This document shows, piece by piece, positions 3,292 to 24,832 of a DNA stretch of 34,775 nucleotides (positions within the stretch are counted from its first letter, which is position 1; every line of letters starts with the position of its first letter). Made by a program: the position numbers and the translations under genes. The notes under the pieces were generated by a model. That model was given only the letters and a program-made list of their open reading frames with translations, searched no databases and was not told the origin of the DNA. This DNA comes from a virus, in IMG/VR virus record IMGVR_UViG_3300042541_001668, positions 1 through 34,775 of that record, one strand, 5' to 3'.

Positions 3292-3309
3292 CCAATCAAT
3301 CCCCCTATC

Positions 3310-3669
3310 ATGACCGTAGCATCCGTAGCAGAATCAGCCGGGACATCCGAGAGCGTCTTAATCTGGACGCTGATCGGTGGCCACGTCGTCACGCTCGCAA
3401 CTCTCGCAATCAAATCACTGATCGACCAGGCCAACCGAGTGCAAGACCGCCTCGACTCGGAAAGCAAAGCGCGGATTATACTCGCCGAGGGAGCGAAACG
3501 CGAAGAGCGCATCAATGCGAAGATCGACCAGAACACCGCCGTCAACGTCGAGGCAATCAAAGTCGCGAACGGCCACAATGAGAAAATTGTCGCTTTGACT
3601 GAAACGGTGGCGAAGAGCGTGGGCGATGGACTCAGGGACGTTCACGTTACAATCGACCGCGAGAAATGA
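3310..3669 (+). CDS. Holin-like one-TM membrane protein
   Basis: A 119-residue protein with one hydrophobic segment (residues ~16-34, VLIWTLIGGHVVTLATLAI) followed by a long charged helix, residues ~40-110, that looks like a coiled coil. Its stop overlaps the start of the amidase gene (ATGA). A single N-terminal membrane anchor with a cytoplasmic or periplasmic helix directly before an endolysin fits a class III holin or a spanin-like protein. Holins share little sequence, so this rests on topology and neighbourhood. The leader is A/C-rich with no Shine-Dalgarno. Confidence 0.6.
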   Translation: MTVASVAESAGTSESVLIWTLIGGHVVTLATLAIKSLIDQANRVQDRLDSESKARIILAEGAKREERINAKIDQNTAVNVEAIKVANGHNEKIVALTETVAKSVGDGLRDVHVTIDREK

Positions 3670-12880: not shown

Positions 12881-13104
12881 GTGACCAAGAAACATACTTC
12901 GACGGGCTAGTCGGCAAGCGCGTCATCGTCATTTGGCGCGATCAAAGCAGCGACTGGATCGCCTTTCGACTTCTTTGGGAGGACTGCGGCAACGTGAAAT
13001 TGCAAGGCGTGGCTTCACCGGATGGAAGCATGCACGACGGCAGCTGTGTGATTTGCCCAATTAGTTACATCCGGGACATCATCGAGTGGAAGGATGATTT
13101 ATGA
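12877..13104 (+). CDS. Hypothetical phage protein, 75 aa
   Basis: The ATG overlaps the nuclease stop and has GGAGG 7 nt upstream. The product is mostly strands with many acidic and aromatic residues (GKRVIVIWRDQSSDWIAF), ending IEWKDDL. It lies between two nucleases. No family is recognised. Confidence 0.7.
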   Translation: MSDQETYFDGLVGKRVIVIWRDQSSDWIAFRLLWEDCGNVKLQGVASPDGSMHDGSCVICPISYIRDIIEWKDDL

Positions 13105-13388
13105 CCCTCTGGGCTAAACGAACAGACGGCAACCACGCCGAGATCCGGCAAGCGATGCGAGATGCCGGGGCGGAAGTCGAAGACCTATCCGGCAGCGGTA
13201 AGGGGATGCCTGATACGCTCGTCTGGACTCCCCACACCGGGCTGATGCTGGTCGAGATCAAGATGCCGAAGGGGACACTCACGGCGCACCAGGTGCGATT
13301 CCATGCGAGGTTCCCAGTTCACATCGTGCGATCCGTGGATGATGCGATGCGGCTTATACAGCAGAGTTCTAACCACGAAACGACATGA
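13101..13388 (+). CDS. VRR-NUC domain nuclease, 95 aa
   Basis: A stand-alone VRR-NUC nuclease of usual phage length. Catalytic residues are D38 (GKGMPDTLVW), E52 and K54 (LMLVEIKMPKG), followed by the helix LTAHQVRFH. The family acts on branched DNA or makes nicks. Its last residues (QQSSNHETT) come from a DNA segment shared with two unrelated gene ends at 14.2 and 15.5 kb. A second, headless copy of its C-terminal half lies 503 bp downstream. Confidence 0.85.
   Translation: MTLWAKRTDGNHAEIRQAMRDAGAEVEDLSGSGKGMPDTLVWTPHTGLMLVEIKMPKGTLTAHQVRFHARFPVHIVRSVDDAMRLIQQSSNHETT
13233..13360 (+). repeat. Direct repeat copy 1 (C-terminal half of VRR-NUC gene)
   Basis: This 128-bp stretch of the intact VRR-NUC gene matches 13736-13863 with a constant offset of 503 bp. 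I count about 13 mismatches, nearly all in third codon positions, so both copies diverged while coding for protein. Confidence 0.9.
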
Positions 13389-13711
13389 AAACCGAAACCA
13401 AAGAACTAGCCGCCGAACTCCGCAGAATCGCGGAGGGAATCTTATTTGGTCGCCCTTACCTTGTTGCTAATCAAGCCGCCGACCGGCTGGAGGAGCTGGA
13501 GCGCGAGCTTGCCGCCGAGCGGGCGCTTGCGGACAGGCTGGCGGCATCCCTTGAAGACTGCCGCGATGACTCAGCTGAGTTGCTGTCGGAACATTCATGG
13601 TGGCAGGACGAGCCACGATGCGGGTATGCCGAGCGCTACAAAGAAAACGCTAAGAATATCACAAGAGCAGTCGAGACCCTCGCCGCATGGAAGGAGGCCC
13701 GACGAGTATGA
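13385..13711 (+). CDS. Coiled-coil protein, 108 aa
   Basis: The start overlaps the VRR-NUC stop (ATGA). A long charged helix runs through most of it (ADRLEELERELAAERALADR), with a Trp/Arg-rich turn (HSWWQDEPRCGY) and a C-terminal helix. Small coiled-coil proteins like this are typical of phage early regions. It separates the intact nuclease gene from its broken second copy. Function unknown. Confidence 0.7.
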   Translation: MKTETKELAAELRRIAEGILFGRPYLVANQAADRLEELERELAAERALADRLAASLEDCRDDSAELLSEHSWWQDEPRCGYAERYKENAKNITRAVETLAAWKEARRV

Positions 13712-13912
13712 CACCAACCCCAAGAACCGACGCCGCACACCGGCTTGCTGCTGGTTGAGATCAAGATGCCGAAGGGGACGCTTACGGCGCACCAAGTCCG
13801 ATTCCACGCGAGGTTCCCGGTTCACATTGTGCGATCCGTGGATGATGCGATGCAGCTTATAGAGAACGTCAAAGATCACGAATCGCCGAAGCACGGCGGC
13901 GATTCAAAGTAA
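13708..13912 (+). pseudogene. Chimeric remnant: TPRTDA start fused out of frame to a second VRR-NUC C-terminus
   Basis: ATG 13708 has GGAGG upstream and begins MTPTPRTDAAHRLAAG, then meets a stop at 13756-13758. From 13736 another frame encodes HTGLLLVEIKMPKG and continues to a TAA at 13910-13912 with the same sequence as the VRR-NUC C-terminal half, but it has no upstream start and lacks the catalytic Asp. The junction therefore joins the head of a TPRTDA gene to the tail of a foreign nuclease allele, and neither part can make a complete protein without frameshifting. Confidence 0.8.
13736..13863 (+). repeat. Direct repeat copy 2 (VRR-NUC remnant)
   Basis: Homologous to 13233-13360 at about 90 percent by eye. 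Protein changes are limited to Met to Leu, Arg to Gln and Gln to Glu. Similarity stops sharply on the left at the TPRTDA junction and on the right where copy 1 enters its CAGAGTTCTAACC tail. Confidence 0.9.
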
Positions 13913-13917
13913 AACGT

Positions 13918-13945
13918 AACCGGCGATTTCGTGCATCGCCTTGTT
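13918..13945 (+). other. Hairpin before the 13956 gene
   Basis: GGCGAT pairs with ATCGCC around a 7-nt loop, and an outer AAC pairs with GTT across a small bulge, followed by CG. A shorter version of the same order (TAACCGG, then CC, then TTGTTC) follows the 59-bp repeat at 14192-14207. It may be a terminator, an RNA processing site or a recombination hairpin. Confidence 0.5.
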
Positions 13946-13955
13946 CGACAATTTT

Positions 13956-14231
13956 ATGACTACCATCGAAAAGAAACTGATTGAAGCTGGAGTGAAAAAC
14001 CTCCGCGAATTTGGGTATCCTGACTGCAACGTTGAGAATATCCTGACGGATCAAATCTACGGTGCGTTCTTCAAGTCCATGCTCGAAGAAAATAAGGGGC
14101 GCGGCGTGGATCGGGAGATTGACGCGCTGCTCGCTCGTTTGTCGAACAGCCCGATCACCGGCGCAACGGCGTCCGGTGCATCCCAGAGTTCTAACCGGCC
14201 ACCTTGTTCTCTGAATTTCCGAAAGCCATGA
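13956..14231 (+). CDS. Small conserved phage protein with repeat-derived tail, 91 aa
   Basis: The start at 13956 gives MTTIEKKLIEAGVKNLREFG, then NILTDQIYGAFFKSMLEEN and REIDALLARL, an order I know from a family of phage early proteins of unknown function. Residues after ~62 (NSPITGATASGASQSSNRP) are encoded by the 59-bp repeat and look appended rather than native. A TTG at 13941 is a less likely start. The stop overlaps the next ATG (ATGA). Confidence 0.7.
   Translation: MTTIEKKLIEAGVKNLREFGYPDCNVENILTDQIYGAFFKSMLEENKGRGVDREIDALLARLSNSPITGATASGASQSSNRPPCSLNFRKP
14143..14201 (+). repeat. 59-bp gene-end direct repeat, copy A
   Basis: Matches 15451-15509 with three mismatches; the last 43 bp (14159-14201) are identical. 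It forms the 3' end of the 13956 gene. It can fold: ACCGG with CCGGT around CGC / GCG, or CCGGT with the downstream ACCGG. The core CAGAGTTCTAACC (14184-14196) also ends the VRR-NUC gene at 13362-13374. Confidence 0.95.
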
Positions 14232-14437
14232 AAGACAAAGATATAACCAATGCCGAAGCTCACGGCTTCGCGTCACTTAAATGGCACGCCGCCGAAAAAG
14301 GTGACATTGAAACCGCCCTTGAAATGCAGAAGGCGGAAACCGAATCGCTCTGCCGACTGGCGGGGATGATCGAGCAACCAGACCCAGAAGATCCAACTAA
14401 AGAAGCCGACTGGTGGAAACCTGAAACCGAACAATGA
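14228..14437 (+). CDS. Small acidic helical protein, 69 aa
   Basis: Starts at an ATG overlapping the previous stop and ends overlapping the next start. Two helices (AEAHGFASLKWHAAEKGD, ALEMQKAETESLCRLAGM) are followed by an acidic tail (QPDPEDPTKEADWW). No known family. DNA here is AT-richer than average for the window. Confidence 0.65.
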   Translation: MKDKDITNAEAHGFASLKWHAAEKGDIETALEMQKAETESLCRLAGMIEQPDPEDPTKEADWWKPETEQ

Positions 14438-14721
14438 AACCGACCAGAGAAAAGCCGATATTAAAAGAAACTTCGCCATGCTTGTATGCGTGCTCATGCG
14501 GCTGGAAGGGTCCCCGATATGCGACTTGGGTGAAGCGTGGGAGCCGCGACCTGCTTTTCTGCGGTGGATGCCGAGAATCATCAATGGACCGGAAAGCTTT
14601 CATCGAACACTGCGCCAGTGATTTGCAGAACGCAATAGGTGAGGCACGGGCGGACAGCGCCACCTCGCCAATAAGCTTACCCGCCGTTCCATCCGCCTAC
14701 TTGTTCGAATTCTTATCATGA
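14434..14721 (+). CDS. Small zinc-ribbon-like protein, 95 aa
   Basis: The N-terminal half carries two cysteine groups (CLYACSCGW and LLFCGGC) spaced as in a zinc ribbon. The C-terminal part after about residue 70 (DSATSPISLPAVPSAYLFEF) is low in charge and looks appended, ending close to the next start. It overlaps both neighbours by ATGA. Zinc binding is inferred from spacing; function unknown. Confidence 0.65.
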   Translation: MKPTREKPILKETSPCLYACSCGWKGPRYATWVKRGSRDLLFCGGCRESSMDRKAFIEHCASDLQNAIGEARADSATSPISLPAVPSAYLFEFLS

Positions 14722-14924
14722 ACCTACCAAGACACGACGACCTAGAAAATCCGCCCGATTTTTGCGAACTTCGGGACGATTACTGGCAGCTATGGGATCA
14801 ACTCAAAGCGGCGGAAATCAAGATGGCTAAAATCGCAGAATCTATCTCCCCGATGGAACATGGACATCCCGATAATCTTTTCTTGTCGAACGCCTCTGTG
14901 GAGGCACGCACCAAACCGCTATGA
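14718..14924 (+). CDS. Hypothetical phage protein, 68 aa
   Basis: A helical acidic product (DDYWQLWDQLKAAEIKMAKIAESI) coupled by ATGA overlaps on both sides. Its last codons contain a small inverted repeat GCCTC / GAGGC. No family recognised. Confidence 0.65.
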   Translation: MNLPRHDDLENPPDFCELRDDYWQLWDQLKAAEIKMAKIAESISPMEHGHPDNLFLSNASVEARTKPL

Positions 14925-15178
14925 ATACACCAACCAACTCCGAGGCGTTGCCTCTCACGAATTGTTCGGCTCTTGAGATTTGGGTAAATAATCCCAACTC
15001 ATGCCTTGGGTGGGCACGCCACTCTGGACCGTTCACCAGCCGCGCCAAGACAGAAAAACGCGTGCGGGACATCAAGCTATTTGATGCCGTCAAAGGATGC
15101 CGCTTTCAAATCCGTTCTCTGCCGAACGACCCTGCTCTGGCACAGCCGGAAAACCACAATAAACCCTCGAGCACCTGA
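14921..15178 (+). CDS. Hypothetical phage protein, 85 aa
   Basis: Begins MNTPTNSEALPL, a loose relative of the TPRTDA tag, and has a compact alpha/beta middle (KRVRDIKLFDAVKGCRFQI). The early part holds a second GAGGC / GCCTC repeat that can also pair with the one before its start (AACGCCTC with GAGGCGTT). Function unknown. Confidence 0.65.
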   Translation: MNTPTNSEALPLTNCSALEIWVNNPNSCLGWARHSGPFTSRAKTEKRVRDIKLFDAVKGCRFQIRSLPNDPALAQPENHNKPSST

Positions 15179-15182
15179 AAAT

Positions 15183-15518
15183 ATGGCCGAAGAAACAGAA
15201 CATGGAACCACTGAGCGCAAGGCTGTTGACCAGCAGCGCCTTGTTCGGCCTCATTGGATCACCGCTCCAAGGGGATACGCCGAACCTGATCCGCCATACC
15301 GCTCCCGCTTCAACTTCGTGTGGTGGTTCTGGATGCCGCGCATCCACACGCAACGGCCCGACACCATGAACCCGCGTGTGATACGGATCATCTGGCTATG
15401 CTTCGCTGTGGGACTGGACATCTGGGGCAAGGAGTCGCGGATGTATTGGCCGAACAGCGGGATCATCGGCGCAACGGCGTCCGGTGCATCCCAGAGTTCT
15501 AACCGGCCAGCACCATGA
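15183..15518 (+). CDS. Trp-rich small protein with repeat-derived tail, 111 aa
   Basis: The chosen start is ATG 15183, four bases after the previous stop; ATG 15366 is an alternative. A basic N-terminal part leads to a Trp/Phe-rich segment (RFNFVWWFWMPRIH) and a hydrophobic helix (RIIWLCFAVGLDIWG), so a membrane association is possible. The last ~19 residues (IIGATASGASQSSNRPAP) come from repeat copy B. The stop overlaps the next ATG. Confidence 0.55.
   Translation: MAEETEHGTTERKAVDQQRLVRPHWITAPRGYAEPDPPYRSRFNFVWWFWMPRIHTQRPDTMNPRVIRIIWLCFAVGLDIWGKESRMYWPNSGIIGATASGASQSSNRPAP
15451..15509 (+). repeat. 59-bp gene-end direct repeat, copy B
   Basis: The second copy of the element at 14143-14201, offset 1308 bp. 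It again makes the C-terminus of a small gene and is directly followed by the start of the next gene (ATG 15515). The host genes are otherwise unrelated. Confidence 0.95.
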
Positions 15519-16051
15519 ACGACACCCCACGCACCGACGCCATTGCCCATCGAGGCTACAACGAGTCCGCCTACATCTCGGAGATGACCGGCCTAAGCCG
15601 ACAGCTGGAGCGCGAAAACAAGACCTTCCGCGCAGCTCAAAAGGCTTGCGAGGATTGCGACGCGCCACGCGTTGACCGGATCGCCGAGCTAGAGCGCGAG
15701 CTTGCTGAATCCACTGAATCGCTCGCTTTTCAGACGCAACTCAACCGCGAGGTGATCGAGCTGGAAAAAAAGACGCTTGGCGAGCGGAACGACGCGAGGA
15801 AGGAGCTTGAGCAAATCAAGGCAGTGCTAGCCGATCCTGTGGCCGTTCACCTCAACATGATGCGCGGGACGATTGCATGGACACCGGCGAACCTGCGCCA
15901 CTTGTTAGGCGATACCGGCGACGCAAGGGCGGAACTAGCCAGCCTGAAAGCCACGCTAGCCGATCCTGACGAGGTGGAACTTGCGATGATCCGTGGCGAA
16001 ATCGCGATTCCGCACCGGGTAGGGTTTGATTACATCATCGGGAACCCATGA
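15515..16051 (+). CDS. Long coiled-coil 'TPRTDA' protein, 178 aa
   Basis: Begins MNDTPRTDAIAHRGY, then a coiled coil (RQLERENKTF, ELERELAESTESLA). The C-terminal half holds two related units: LADPVAVHLNMMRGTIA at ~109-125 and LADPDEVELAMIRGEIA at ~149-165. This looks like a full-length version of the shorter TPRTDA proteins in the window. Unknown function; position just before the initiator gene may hint at replication. Confidence 0.75.
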   Translation: MNDTPRTDAIAHRGYNESAYISEMTGLSRQLERENKTFRAAQKACEDCDAPRVDRIAELERELAESTESLAFQTQLNREVIELEKKTLGERNDARKELEQIKAVLADPVAVHLNMMRGTIAWTPANLRHLLGDTGDARAELASLKATLADPDEVELAMIRGEIAIPHRVGFDYIIGNP

Positions 16052-19546: not shown

Positions 19547-19644
19547 AAATACCCCCATACAAGGAATCTCTTCCGTAAGTTATTGCCGAAGGCGCTGCGT
19601 CGCGCGGGAATTAAGTATGCAACAAGAAATAAGATAGGAACCAA

Positions 19645-20166
19645 ATGCCAAGGACAACAATAGCCGAAGCATGTCGCGAGCGCGGCATTAACCGAAAGGA
19701 CTGGGACGAGGCCAAAAGGCAAGGGGTTGACCCTTGGAACCGTGAGGCAATGGCTGCGTGGGCTAGTTCTAGGAACCACCGGATTCAGCCTGGCGCGAAG
19801 ATGGCGCTACCGGAAGCGACCGCTACAGCTCAAAGCCTACAAGAGATGGAGCTTGCCATCAGGCAGGCGCAGGACATCGACACAGTAAAGATCCTCAAAG
19901 AAAAGGTTCTCGCGCTGAAGGGAATCGTTGCCGTCCAGATGGAGACTCGCGAGCTTGTCCCTGTTGGCGAGGTTCGCCAGTCGATAACCCGAGTCGTATC
20001 CGCCGCTCGTGGCGAGCTACTTAAGTTCGCCGCCGACATTCCGCCGAGGGCTGAAGGATTGGAAGCGTCCGCTATCCAGAAGCTTATTCAAGCCGAGGTT
20101 ATTGAGATCCTCACCCGGCTATCCGATGAAACCAACGCCATTTATGCGGAAGAATCCAGTCATTGA
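19645..20166 (+). CDS. terS: Terminase small subunit (Nu1-like)
   Basis: A 173-residue protein directly before the large terminase. Residues 1-35 form a DNA-binding winged-helix-like head (TIAEACRERGINRKDWDEAK). A central helix pair (EMELAIRQAQDIDTVKILKE) and the segment ETRELVPVGEVRQSI leading to LTRLSDETNAIYAE match the small terminase family that pairs with gpA-type large subunits. It should recognise the packaging site and recruit the motor. Its 3' end overlaps the large subunit start by about 40 nt. Confidence 0.8.
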   Translation: MPRTTIAEACRERGINRKDWDEAKRQGVDPWNREAMAAWASSRNHRIQPGAKMALPEATATAQSLQEMELAIRQAQDIDTVKILKEKVLALKGIVAVQMETRELVPVGEVRQSITRVVSAARGELLKFAADIPPRAEGLEASAIQKLIQAEVIEILTRLSDETNAIYAEESSH

Positions 20167-22209: not shown

Positions 22210-23739
22210 ATGGCTATCCTCGACGAATTTGGTGCTCCGGTTGTTTATTCCAGTCGATTCGCCCACGGTTCCGATCGATCCCGGTCGCGTGGGGCGCAGT
22301 TTTCGATCAACGACACGGACATCGACAAGCTGATTCCGTCAAATGACCGGCGCACGCTTGTCTCGCTGTCAAAGCGGCTGGCGGCAAACATGGGCGTGCC
22401 GAAAGCCATTGTTGCGCAGAAAGCTCAATACTCAGTCGGGCAGGCATGGATTCCGGCCTACGCGGGAGACGACACGGCAAACGGCGATGCCGTTGAACGC
22501 TGGCTTAAAAACGTTTGGATGCCCAACTGTGATGTGCGCGGCGGGATCAACGATTGGCACCAGTATCTAAACGACGCCAGCAAGGACATTGACTTCGGGG
22601 ATCATTTCACGCTCCTCACGATGACCGGGGACGGCACGTTTCCGCTTCTCCAAAACATTCCTAGTCACCGAGTAAGAGGTGGCGGGAACGAAGCCAAAAT
22701 CACCGAAGGAAGATACCAAGGCGCAAGAATCAAGGATGGAATCATTTACAACAAACAAGGTCGAGCCATTGCCTACCGTGTAGCTGGCGAAACCGACGTT
22801 GATAAATTTGAGGACATCCCGGCAAGCTCCATTGTCCACGTTTACGACAAGGATTTCAGCGATCAGGGACGAGGATTCCCGACGTTCACGCACGCCGTCG
22901 AAGACCTAAAGCACTGTCTTCAATCGACCGAATACGAGCGGATTCGCCAACTCATCATCTCGTCCATCGGGTTGATTGAATACAACGAGCATGGCGGTCC
23001 GGATCTTGATGACCCCGGCATCGCGCTTGGAAAATCCACTGAAGACTCTGGTGGCATTACATTCCAAAGCTATCAAGGCGGAATGACCCGTTACATGCGG
23101 GCGAACTCCGGTGAGAAGCTGGAAGTCATCAAGCACGACAATCCTGGCGATGTTTGGGAAAGCTTCCAGGACAGATTGAACCGGGCTTCCGTTGTCGGTT
23201 CCGGCTGGAGCTACGGCATGGTTTGGAAATCAGCCGGTCAAGGAACAGCCGAGCGGGCCGACATCCTGCGCGCCCGTCGAGCTGTGGGCGAGCGGCAACG
23301 CCTGATCCTCTTCCTTGCGAAGCGCGTTGTCTCTTACGCTGCCGCATTCGCTCAGTCGAAAGGCAAGATCACCCGCGCCAATGGATCGCAAGTCTTCCTA
23401 GCAAATCCGACCTTATGGGGATTCTCCAAGCCGCCTCGCCTATCGGTTGACGACGGGCGCGAGGATAAGGCTTTACTTGAAGGCTGGCGGGCAGGCACCC
23501 GCAATCTCACCGAAGTCATCGAGGCCAACGGTCGCGACATTGAAGAATTTACCCGCGAGCGGGCTAACGAGATCGTCTTGCGGAAATTGATAGCCGCCGA
23601 AGTGGGCGCAGCCGCTGGCGTTGAGATCGAAGACCGGGAGATGGCAATGCTCACGCCTAACGAAATGGGCGAGCAGGGCGACGCGCCCGACATGGAAGAA
23701 CCCAACCCCATCGAAGAAGATGAACCTGATTCAAATTGA
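22210..23739 (+). CDS. Portal protein (lambda gpB family)
   Basis: A 509-residue protein with portal-type features: LSKRLAANMGVPKAIVAQ near the N-terminus, then the body with IPSHRVRGG, HVYDKDFSDQGRGFP, and the stem/crown segment ANSGEKLEVIKHDNPGDVWE followed by WSYGMVWK. The order after terminase and gpW fits lambda. It forms the twelve-fold DNA entry ring and docks the terminase. The last 30 residues are acidic and disordered. It overlaps the protease start by 20 nt. Confidence 0.92.
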   Translation: MAILDEFGAPVVYSSRFAHGSDRSRSRGAQFSINDTDIDKLIPSNDRRTLVSLSKRLAANMGVPKAIVAQKAQYSVGQAWIPAYAGDDTANGDAVERWLKNVWMPNCDVRGGINDWHQYLNDASKDIDFGDHFTLLTMTGDGTFPLLQNIPSHRVRGGGNEAKITEGRYQGARIKDGIIYNKQGRAIAYRVAGETDVDKFEDIPASSIVHVYDKDFSDQGRGFPTFTHAVEDLKHCLQSTEYERIRQLIISSIGLIEYNEHGGPDLDDPGIALGKSTEDSGGITFQSYQGGMTRYMRANSGEKLEVIKHDNPGDVWESFQDRLNRASVVGSGWSYGMVWKSAGQGTAERADILRARRAVGERQRLILFLAKRVVSYAAAFAQSKGKITRANGSQVFLANPTLWGFSKPPRLSVDDGREDKALLEGWRAGTRNLTEVIEANGRDIEEFTRERANEIVLRKLIAAEVGAAAGVEIEDREMAMLTPNEMGEQGDAPDMEEPNPIEEDEPDSN

Positions 23740-24832
23740 AAACCGAACCGGAAAGGTGAAGCTGAACGATGCGGTGACGCCGTGGAGTTCCGACGACCTG
23801 ATTGGTGACATCGAAAAGCTCTACGGGGCTAAGGCTGTTGCCGAGAACCTCCGCATTGGCGAGTTCACGGCAAAGGCTGACGACGCTTTAGAGACGCTGG
23901 AAATCGAGATTAACAGCCCAGGCGGCAGCGTTCTTGACGGATACCGCGTTTACCACTCCCTCATGGGGATGCGGGAACGCGGCGTTAAGGTCATCGCCAC
24001 CGGCAACGGCATCGTCGCCAGCATGGCTTCCGTGATCTTCATGGCGGCAGACGAGCGACGAATCACACAAGGGTCGCGGATCATGATTCACGAAGCGCAG
24101 CAAACGGTCGGCGGGGATTCCGAAGACCACGCACGAGCCGCGAAGATTCTCGACGAGATGAGCGATGAGATCGCCAGCATTTACGCAGGCGTTACCGGCG
24201 CTGACAAAGACGAGATGCGCGAACTGATGAAGAAGGAGACTTGGATGGGCGCGGCGGAAGCTATCGAGCGCAAGTTTGCCGATTCCATCGTCGGGAAATC
24301 CGCCGTTGACATTGGCGGCAAGGGCGCGAAATCCGAAACCAATAACCGTATGAGCATTCTTGACCGACTCCTGCCGAATGGCGAACTTACCGCAAAGCTG
24401 GAAGCTGCAAATGGCGAACTCGTCAATGCGGCTAACGAAATCCAGACGCTTACCAACAAGCTGAAAGAAGCCGACGCCGTTCTGGCCGAGGCCGCTGACG
24501 AACTCCGCGAGTTCAAGGCGAAGGCTGAAACCGCCGAAGCTCAGGCCAAGGCTGACAAGGAAGCTCGCGAAGTCGCTGAAGCTCTCGCCAAGCCCGAAGT
24601 CATCGAGGCGAAGGCGCTGGAGCTTGTCGCGTCCGTTGAAGCTCCCGAGGCAATCGCAAATGCCATTTCCGCCAAAGCCGCCGAAATGATCGCAAGCGCC
24701 GGTCACCCTGCGGTTGATGAAATCATCAACGACAGCGACGCAAATAAAAAACTTTCCCGCGCTTCCTTCAACAATCTTTCTCACCCGAAGCGAAATGCAT
24801 TCATCCGCGAAGGCGGGAAAATCACCGAATAA
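23720..24832 (+). CDS. Head maturation protease (ClpP/S14-like) fused to scaffold
   Basis: The 370-residue product starts at 23720 inside the portal gene end. Residues 55-200 are ClpP-like: INSPGGSVLDGY, the nucleophile region NGIVASMAS (Ser101) and RIMIHEAQ (His124), then TGADKDEMRELM and an MGAAEAIERKFAD segment. Residues ~211-370 are an Ala/Glu/Lys coiled-coil scaffold. As in lambda C/Nu3, a shorter in-frame start (24350) can make the scaffold alone. The protease cleaves scaffold and itself during prohead maturation. The third catalytic residue I could not place with certainty. Confidence 0.9.
   Translation: MNLIQIENRTGKVKLNDAVTPWSSDDLIGDIEKLYGAKAVAENLRIGEFTAKADDALETLEIEINSPGGSVLDGYRVYHSLMGMRERGVKVIATGNGIVASMASVIFMAADERRITQGSRIMIHEAQQTVGGDSEDHARAAKILDEMSDEIASIYAGVTGADKDEMRELMKKETWMGAAEAIERKFADSIVGKSAVDIGGKGAKSETNNRMSILDRLLPNGELTAKLEAANGELVNAANEIQTLTNKLKEADAVLAEAADELREFKAKAETAEAQAKADKEAREVAEALAKPEVIEAKALELVASVEAPEAIANAISAKAAEMIASAGHPAVDEIINDSDANKKLSRASFNNLSHPKRNAFIREGGKITE
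24306..24317 (+). promoter_or_regulatory. TTGACATTGGCG motif inside protease gene, before scaffold start
   Basis: The 12-base motif lies in the coding sequence (VDIGG), 44 bases before the nested scaffold ATG at 24350. It could help express scaffold separately from the protease. Being inside a gene, it may also be chance codon use. Confidence 0.35.
24350..24832 (+). CDS. Nested in-frame scaffold protein, 160 aa
   Basis: ATG 24350 begins MSILDRLLPNGELTAKLEAA, right at the boundary between protease and coiled-coil parts, behind an A/C-rich leader AACCAATAACCGT. The product is almost entirely helical with heptad-like Leu/Ala spacing. Lambda Nu3 is made the same way from within gene C. Direct proof of internal initiation is lacking. 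Confidence 0.7.
   Translation: MSILDRLLPNGELTAKLEAANGELVNAANEIQTLTNKLKEADAVLAEAADELREFKAKAETAEAQAKADKEAREVAEALAKPEVIEAKALELVASVEAPEAIANAISAKAAEMIASAGHPAVDEIINDSDANKKLSRASFNNLSHPKRNAFIREGGKITE

Follow-up and report, generated by a model that had tools for sequence, protein, structure and literature searches.

A headless VRR-NUC tail as the probable left edge of an integron-type cassette array without an integrase in a tailed phage

Clusters of attC sites lacking an integrase (CALINs) were reported in phages in 2023 (Qi et al., PMC9892861), the examples being Tetrasphaera phage TJE1, Polaribacter phage P12002L, and Pseudoalteromonas phage PH101/H101, and the attC sites of TJE1 recombine with the integrase IntI1 (PMC9892861). 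Here, we describe a related locus in IMG/VR virus record IMGVR_UViG_3300042541_001668; the whole stretch of DNA analyzed, 34,775 nucleotides, is referred to as the window. Directly to the right of a headless VRR-NUC tail lies an integron-type attC cluster without an integrase, made up of six sites and five cassettes at positions 13865 to 15504. A CALIN is defined by at least two close attC sites with no integrase nearby, and this cluster has six sites within 1.7 kb. We consider it very likely that the headless tail marks the left edge of this array, that its carrier is a tailed phage of about 35 kb that infects a freshwater bacterium, and that two loci have been fused at this place. The features of the region are listed below, with related contigs given by their L numbers.

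13101 to 13388, plus strand: VRR-NUC copy 1, the intact nuclease gene, 95 aa (Pfam PF08774 and PHROG).
13362 to 13384, plus strand: scar, the right part of a type A right-end site (CAGAGTTCTAACCACGAAACGAC), by comparison with L006.
13385 to 13711, plus strand: small gene of coiled-coil type, 108 aa, whose 3' half, with the junction that follows, forms a block common to L008.
13708 to 13758, plus strand: TPRTDA stub ORF (MTPTPRTDAAHRLAAG, then stop), by direct reading; junction also in L008.
13729 to 13864, plus strand: headless VRR-NUC tail, copy 2, by repeat comparison and allele grouping.
13865 to 13943, minus strand: attC0, arms GATCACGAATCGCC and GGCGATTTCGTGCATC, with T-N6-C read directly (not the minimum-energy fold), and by flank comparison.
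13867 to 14146, plus strand: cassette 1, attC0 and the gene at 13956-14231 (MTTIEKKLIEAG...); ends TTCGACAA and TTGTCGAA, 9-nt own complementarity.
14145 to 14206, minus strand: attC1, a type A site and conserved dispersed element; fold z -2.8, T-N6-C bulges.
14147 to 14630, plus strand: cassette 2, attC1 and the overlapping genes at 14228-14437 and 14434-14721; the weakest end pairing, 5 nt.
14629 to 14703, minus strand: attC2, bulge pattern not clean.
14631 to 14890, plus strand: cassette 3, attC2 and the gene at 14718-14924 (MNLPRHDDLENPPDF...); one moving block, 99% in L006.
14889 to 14964, minus strand: attC3, T-N6-T, holding the start codon of the next gene.
14891 to 15126, plus strand: cassette 4, attC3 and the gene at 14921-15178 (MNTPTNSEALPLTNCSA...); ends TTCGGC and GCCGAA.
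15125 to 15243, minus strand: attC4, holding the start codon of the next gene (15183).
15127 to 15454, plus strand: cassette 5, attC4 and the gene at 15183-15518 (MAEETEHG..., a membrane-type protein); ends TTCGGCC and GGCCGAA.
15453 to 15504, minus strand: right-end type A site, the right boundary of the array, conserved in L003, L004, L006, L008, and L009.
15515 to 16051, plus strand: flanking gene MNDTPRTDA..., which forms the array's fixed right flank, by gene list and flank comparison.

The two VRR-NUC copies form a direct repeat, 13226-13361 and 13729-13864, that runs over 136 nt without gaps at 89% identity and a spacing of 503. When the whole window was compared with itself, this was the second-largest repeat family, the largest being a low-complexity 12-mer run, which argues against a chance match. 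The first-pass annotation had given the offset as 503, with about 13 mismatches and three amino acid changes; the same values are obtained over 13239-13361, the changes being M>L, R>Q, and Q>E. Copy 1 matched PF08774 (VRR_NUC) with 32 bits against the curated cut-off of 23.8, its PHROG match was endonuclease/Holliday junction resolvase, and it agreed at 93-98% with relatives; the end of an attC-like site has taken the place of its final codons. Copy 2 corresponds to the intact protein from His45 onward and hence has no Gly-x-Pro-Asp part of the PD-(D/E)xK site, ExK alone being kept; a complete PD-(D/E)xK core is thus absent, and Pfam VRR_NUC gave no match to this copy.

The borders of copy 2 lie close to where the first-pass annotation had put them. 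The left one, said to fall in the ninth or tenth codon of a TPRTDA gene with its own GGAGG, is in the eighth to tenth codon of the stub ORF, where the match starts in GAC(G/T)CC(G/C)CACACC. This ORF begins ATG ACA CCA ACC CCA AGA ACC GAC GCC (MTPTPRTDA), with the ATG at 13708, and stops after 16 codons; the GGAGG is at 13693-13697, which is also inside the gene upstream of the stub. The right one had been placed where copy 1 enters its tail, and the match indeed ends at 13361/13864, with CAGAGTTCTAACC starting at 13362. This 13-mer has three exact occurrences in the window (13362, 14184, and 15492), and 0 of 100 shuffles contained as many near matches. The CAGAGTTCTAACC "tail" of copy 1 is the right-hand half of an attC-like site, itself conserved, by which the array is closed on its other side; positions 13363-13384 (AGAGTTCTAACCACGAAACGAC) are identical over 22 nt to the array end of L006. 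The first-pass annotation had also named tails ending HGGDSK for the second allele; this tail is read-through into the first attC and lies outside the nuclease.

The exact 26-nt junction was found in one other IMG/VR contig, L008, within a 345-nt block that is 96% identical. L008 is a 4.9-kb fragment with the headless copy only, located behind a methyltransferase gene and a small gene, and it is therefore a contig with the second allele alone, of the kind that the first-pass annotation had proposed to look for. That annotation had also named an assembly artefact as the outcome that would overturn it. The window is a metagenomic contig, and variable regions are a frequent end point of contigs in this group, both of which would speak for a chimera, but the identical junction recurs in an independent contig at 96% over 345 nt; an artefact of the window was rejected on this ground, and we consider the chance of a chimera negligible.

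Over 126 nt, copy 2 and the headless copy of L008 share synonymous states (GGC-TTG-CTG, ACG-CTT, CAA-GTC, and CCG) that are absent in copy 1 and in the intact genes of L003-L006, and copy 1 falls with the intact L003 and L004 genes, differing from L003 by 3 nt over the same 126 nt. This allele grouping rules out a recent tandem duplication and agrees with the earlier proposal that copy 2 came from a separate allele. Between the headless copies of the window and L008, nine codons differ synonymously and one nonsynonymously, which suggests that the stretch is kept in frame or is refreshed from intact alleles. The first of these would be expected if the headless tail were a translated, selected small protein (e.g., 55 aa from TTG 13745), possibly one that regulates the intact nuclease or acts as its partner. 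However, the tail has no good start, TPRTDA is in a different frame, and the catalytic half is missing; furthermore, the L008 copy is similar in its right half to the intact allele of L004 (GCACGGTTTCC), in agreement with renewal through gene conversion from intact genes. We hold a selected small protein to be improbable and, because L008 has the GCACGGTTTCC variant of L004, favor putative refreshing of the tail from intact alleles by gene conversion. The locus had been called a fossil of recombination; a different allele was indeed brought in by recombination, but with a 9:1 excess of synonymous changes between the headless copies the word fossil is too strong. The earlier interpretation as a whole was right about the recombined allele and missed the cause of the break position, namely that a cassette array is flanked on its left by the 3' end of VRR-NUC.

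In L062, the corresponding place holds a third headless tail of about 24 nt, joined there to another gene (..VTNASVEDAMRLIQN..). At positions 3296-3475 of that contig, the headless tail ..SVEDAMRLIQN.. stands on another small gene and is followed by an attC and one more cassette with 9-nt matched ends. The presence of an independent headless tail at the array edge in L062 indicates that this edge recombines repeatedly.

Comparison of the flanks defined the limits of the array. The intact VRR-NUC gene ends in ..CTTATACAG-AAC in L003 and L004 or ..CTTATCAAG-AAC in L006, and in these three contigs the end ..AGAAC falls exactly on the start of an attC; beyond it, each genome differs, and the first cassette varies between the window, L003, L004, L006, and L062. 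In all close relatives with an intact VRR-NUC that are covered past its 3' end, this 3' end is the left array flank, and in the window, L003, L004, L006, L008, and L009 the right end is a conserved type A site before a TPRTDA-type gene. Cassette 2 is also present in L006 and L062, and the 3' part of cassette 5 in L009. Reading of the sequences revealed a helicase among the cargo of L004 and a methyltransferase among that of L015. L015 (4880-5954) and L016 (4411-4714), two more distant phages with a related replication gene, have attC arrays of the same reversed type, which adjoin ERF-recombinase-like and DnaC-like genes and include the methyltransferase cassette.

Integron cassettes are recognized by the complementarity between the core at one end and the inverse core of the cassette's own attC. 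The units described here start just after ..G↓TTCnnn, the arrow marking the crossover, and end ..nnnGAAC, with nnn matched within each unit; the end pairs are TTCGACAA/TTGTCGAA, TTCGCTTG/CAAGCGAA, TTCTCGT/ACGAGAA, TTAGCCG/CGGCTAA, TTCATTT/AAATGAA, TTCTGCC/GGCAGAA, and TTAGGCGA/TCGCCTAA. For 13 cassettes taken from the window, L003, L004, L006, L008, L015, and L016, the matched ends starting GTT measured 5 to 9 nt, with a mean of 7.69 nt (G included), the ends of cassettes 2 and 3 matching over only 5-6 nt. Random re-pairing of cassette ends gave a mean of 4.43 and a maximum of 6.77, and 0 of 100,000 re-pairings reached 7.69, i.e., each cassette is matched to its own end. The type A element alone had been considered as the unit and was dropped after the cassette ends were compared.

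The stretches from AAC to G↓TT form hairpins that have a few unpaired bases at the foot and single extra bases confined to the 3' arm of the plus strand. The spacing of these extra bases is T-N6-C in type A sites and L015 and T-N6-T in attC3, L008, and L015, with slight spacing differences in L016; T-N6-G in L003 and T-N6-C in attC0 were read from the arm sequences, and the predicted fold differs. An attC fold, with paired AAC/GTT R boxes, unpaired spacers, and two extra bases on one arm of the bottom strand, was thus found for attC0 (read directly), attC1, attC3, the right-end site, and the relatives, as well as for attC4 with an additional bulge, and attC2 was not clean. Compared with shuffled sequences, several sites folded no better (z -0.4 to -1.1, and +0.1 for attC4). 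With respect to the consensus GTTRRRY, the R' box GTTAGGC of L016 fits, while GTTAGCC (L006) and GTTCnnn (most sites) deviate. A detector built on the T-N6 pattern matched the arrays of the window, L004, L015, and L016 on the plus strand, plus a few scattered other places. Its sole working control was phage TJE1, in which it marked two sites flanking a small gene beside a methylase gene, in the usual orientation; in H101 and P12002L it gave no convincing site, indicating that it misses real sites and is of limited sensitivity. A scan for linked cassettes, confined to TTG↓TT, was barely to modestly above chance alone and noisy in AT-rich contigs, and it was not used as sole evidence.

Could these hairpins be terminators, regulatory RNAs, or boundary linkers kept for expression, with genes shuffling via homology in them? 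Their location between genes, the start codons that some of them hold, and the conservation of the type A element are in keeping with such a role. Nevertheless, a comparison of the hairpins with Rfam gave no match, the sites of different cassettes are mostly dissimilar, so that homology cannot drive their exchange, the complementarity joins the two ends of one gene and not neighboring genes, and the unpaired bases match those of attC. A role in expression is, in our estimate, highly unlikely to account for them, and we continue to treat the hairpins as attC sites.

Gain or loss of a cassette is visible between the window and L006, which have cassettes 2 and 3 in common, L006 carrying one extra cassette of 461 nt between them. 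When these 461 nt were removed from L006 at AA↓C, the window sequence was obtained with 1 mismatch in 210 nt. An arrangement with the attC oriented with the genes (attC after the gene) was rejected by the bulge side and by 79 mismatches, compared to 1, in this excision comparison. The mobile unit on the plus strand is therefore an attC with its downstream gene. The bulge side further makes the plus strand, on which attC0 reads AAC...G↓TT, the attC bottom strand, so that the genes run against their attC. All cassette genes examined are opposite to their attC, whereas TJE1 is canonical, the same orientation being usual for cassettes and not strictly defining. Start codons are located inside the upstream attC for window genes 14921 and 15183, and also in L003, L006, L008, L016, and L062, which suggests that the 5' end of these genes is contributed by the attC.

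In the model that we propose, the units of exchange are cassettes, each an attC plus the downstream gene on the plus strand, and the crossover is AA↓C, or G↓TT when read on the opposite strand. The enzyme would most likely be an integron integrase that the host provides in trans, with the folded plus strand as its single-stranded substrate. The order of events that we infer would begin with a normal array, bounded to the left by the final VRR-NUC codons (..CAG AAC) and to the right by the type A site before a TPRTDA-type gene. Copy 1 (..CTTATACAG) would have lost its own array, what remains of the right-end site now following it directly; past the next gene comes a second array, whose own left flank is a VRR-NUC tail from another allele. 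The TPRTDA start may then have been joined to this tail by microhomology, through the short shared stretch GACnCCnCACACC, leaving two loci and two alleles fused. No attC crossover coincides with the left border of copy 2 (13729-13736), and this step thus needs ordinary illegitimate recombination.

Plain phage mosaicism, the view of the first-pass annotation, in which homologous or illegitimate exchange between two phages left a truncated second copy and the repeated linkers are mere homology, is in line with a left border that sits within two coding sequences, where these share a short stretch, and not at an attC, with the occurrence of the block in another context in L008, and with the L062 fusion at the short shared stretch TC(C/T)GTGGA(T/G)G. 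It leaves unexplained the cassette-specific complementary ends, the one-sided T-N6 bulges, and the clean 461-nt insertion at AA↓C. As an account of the whole locus, we find it doubtful, with roughly the small chance given to the selected protein above; for the single left-border step, it is probably correct.

No tyrosine recombinase (PF00589) was found in the window record, nor any integrase in 10 of the 11 relatives' contigs, several of which are fragments. L045 (contig 34110_000680, which also contains L007) was the only related contig with a tyrosine recombinase, in a 438-aa frame; in this contig (L045/L007, 31915-32313), no attC array lies behind the VRR-NUC gene, and a PAPS-reductase-like gene is there instead. 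Blast revealed no similar array in cultured phages, the exact type A pattern was not found in bacterial genomes, and when a terminase relative was sought in genomes as a handle on the host, none was confirmed among the matches listed. Tentatively, and with slightly less than even confidence, we suggest that this freshwater phage group may keep a dedicated exchange locus with backward cassettes, an attC that gives the start codon, and a cassette pool of its own, with a host integrase recombining the single-stranded coding strand at replication.

Other parts of the window were noted in passing. L025, L026, L031, L033, L035, L038, and L048 all start at window positions 19592-19595, upstream of the terminase gene at 20129, with CTGCGTCG.., despite the divergence of several of them elsewhere. 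The common start has the appearance of the physical end of the genome, with a cos site beside a lambda-type gpA terminase; if so, the window is a permuted or circularized genome. A Clp-type protease frame (23621-24832) overlaps the end of a lambda-type portal gene (22210-23739), upstream of a P22-like coat protein, and an in-frame 12-nt repeat run at 1506-1600 encodes the (PE)n tail of a 174-aa protein.

The joints of phage mosaics are usually of unknown machinery; here, they fall at recognizable recombination sites, and the exact crossover is marked where two near-identical phages differ by the presence of a cassette. Should the cassettes be moved by host integrases, phages would be using the gene-capture system of bacteria for accessory genes of their own. 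Having the genes reversed, with their start codons in the attC, would amount to a mode of expression unlike that of promoter-driven bacterial arrays, and if the backward-cassette reading is true, each captured unit arrives with its own translation start. Clusters of attC sites in phages were already known; what is new is the reversed orientation throughout, the start codons supplied by attC, the reuse of one locus within a phage group, and the clean filled and empty site. No report of these features was found in the open-library literature, which is not proof of absence.

As a nuclease, copy 1 is a stand-alone VRR-NUC (PF08774) of phage type, while copy 2 keeps the ExK half only and serves here as an array flank. 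Compared to bacterial integron arrays, the locus has the same attC anatomy (R boxes, unpaired spacers, L arms with T-N6-x, and a variable end), the same G↓TT crossover, and cassette-specific complementary ends; it differs in that no intI or attI was found here, the genes are reversed, the R box is mostly GTTC, and the array is hosted by phages with phage-type cargo (the helicase of L004 and the methyltransferase of L015). Like the phage CALINs (PMC9892861), it combines attC clusters and small cassettes without an integrase in tailed phages, with methyltransferases among the cassettes, as in L015. Unlike in TJE1, where genes and attC run the usual way, the window genes oppose their attC; in addition, the window-type attC precedes its gene, for which it often provides the start codon, and cassette gain or loss at the crossover is visible here between close relatives.
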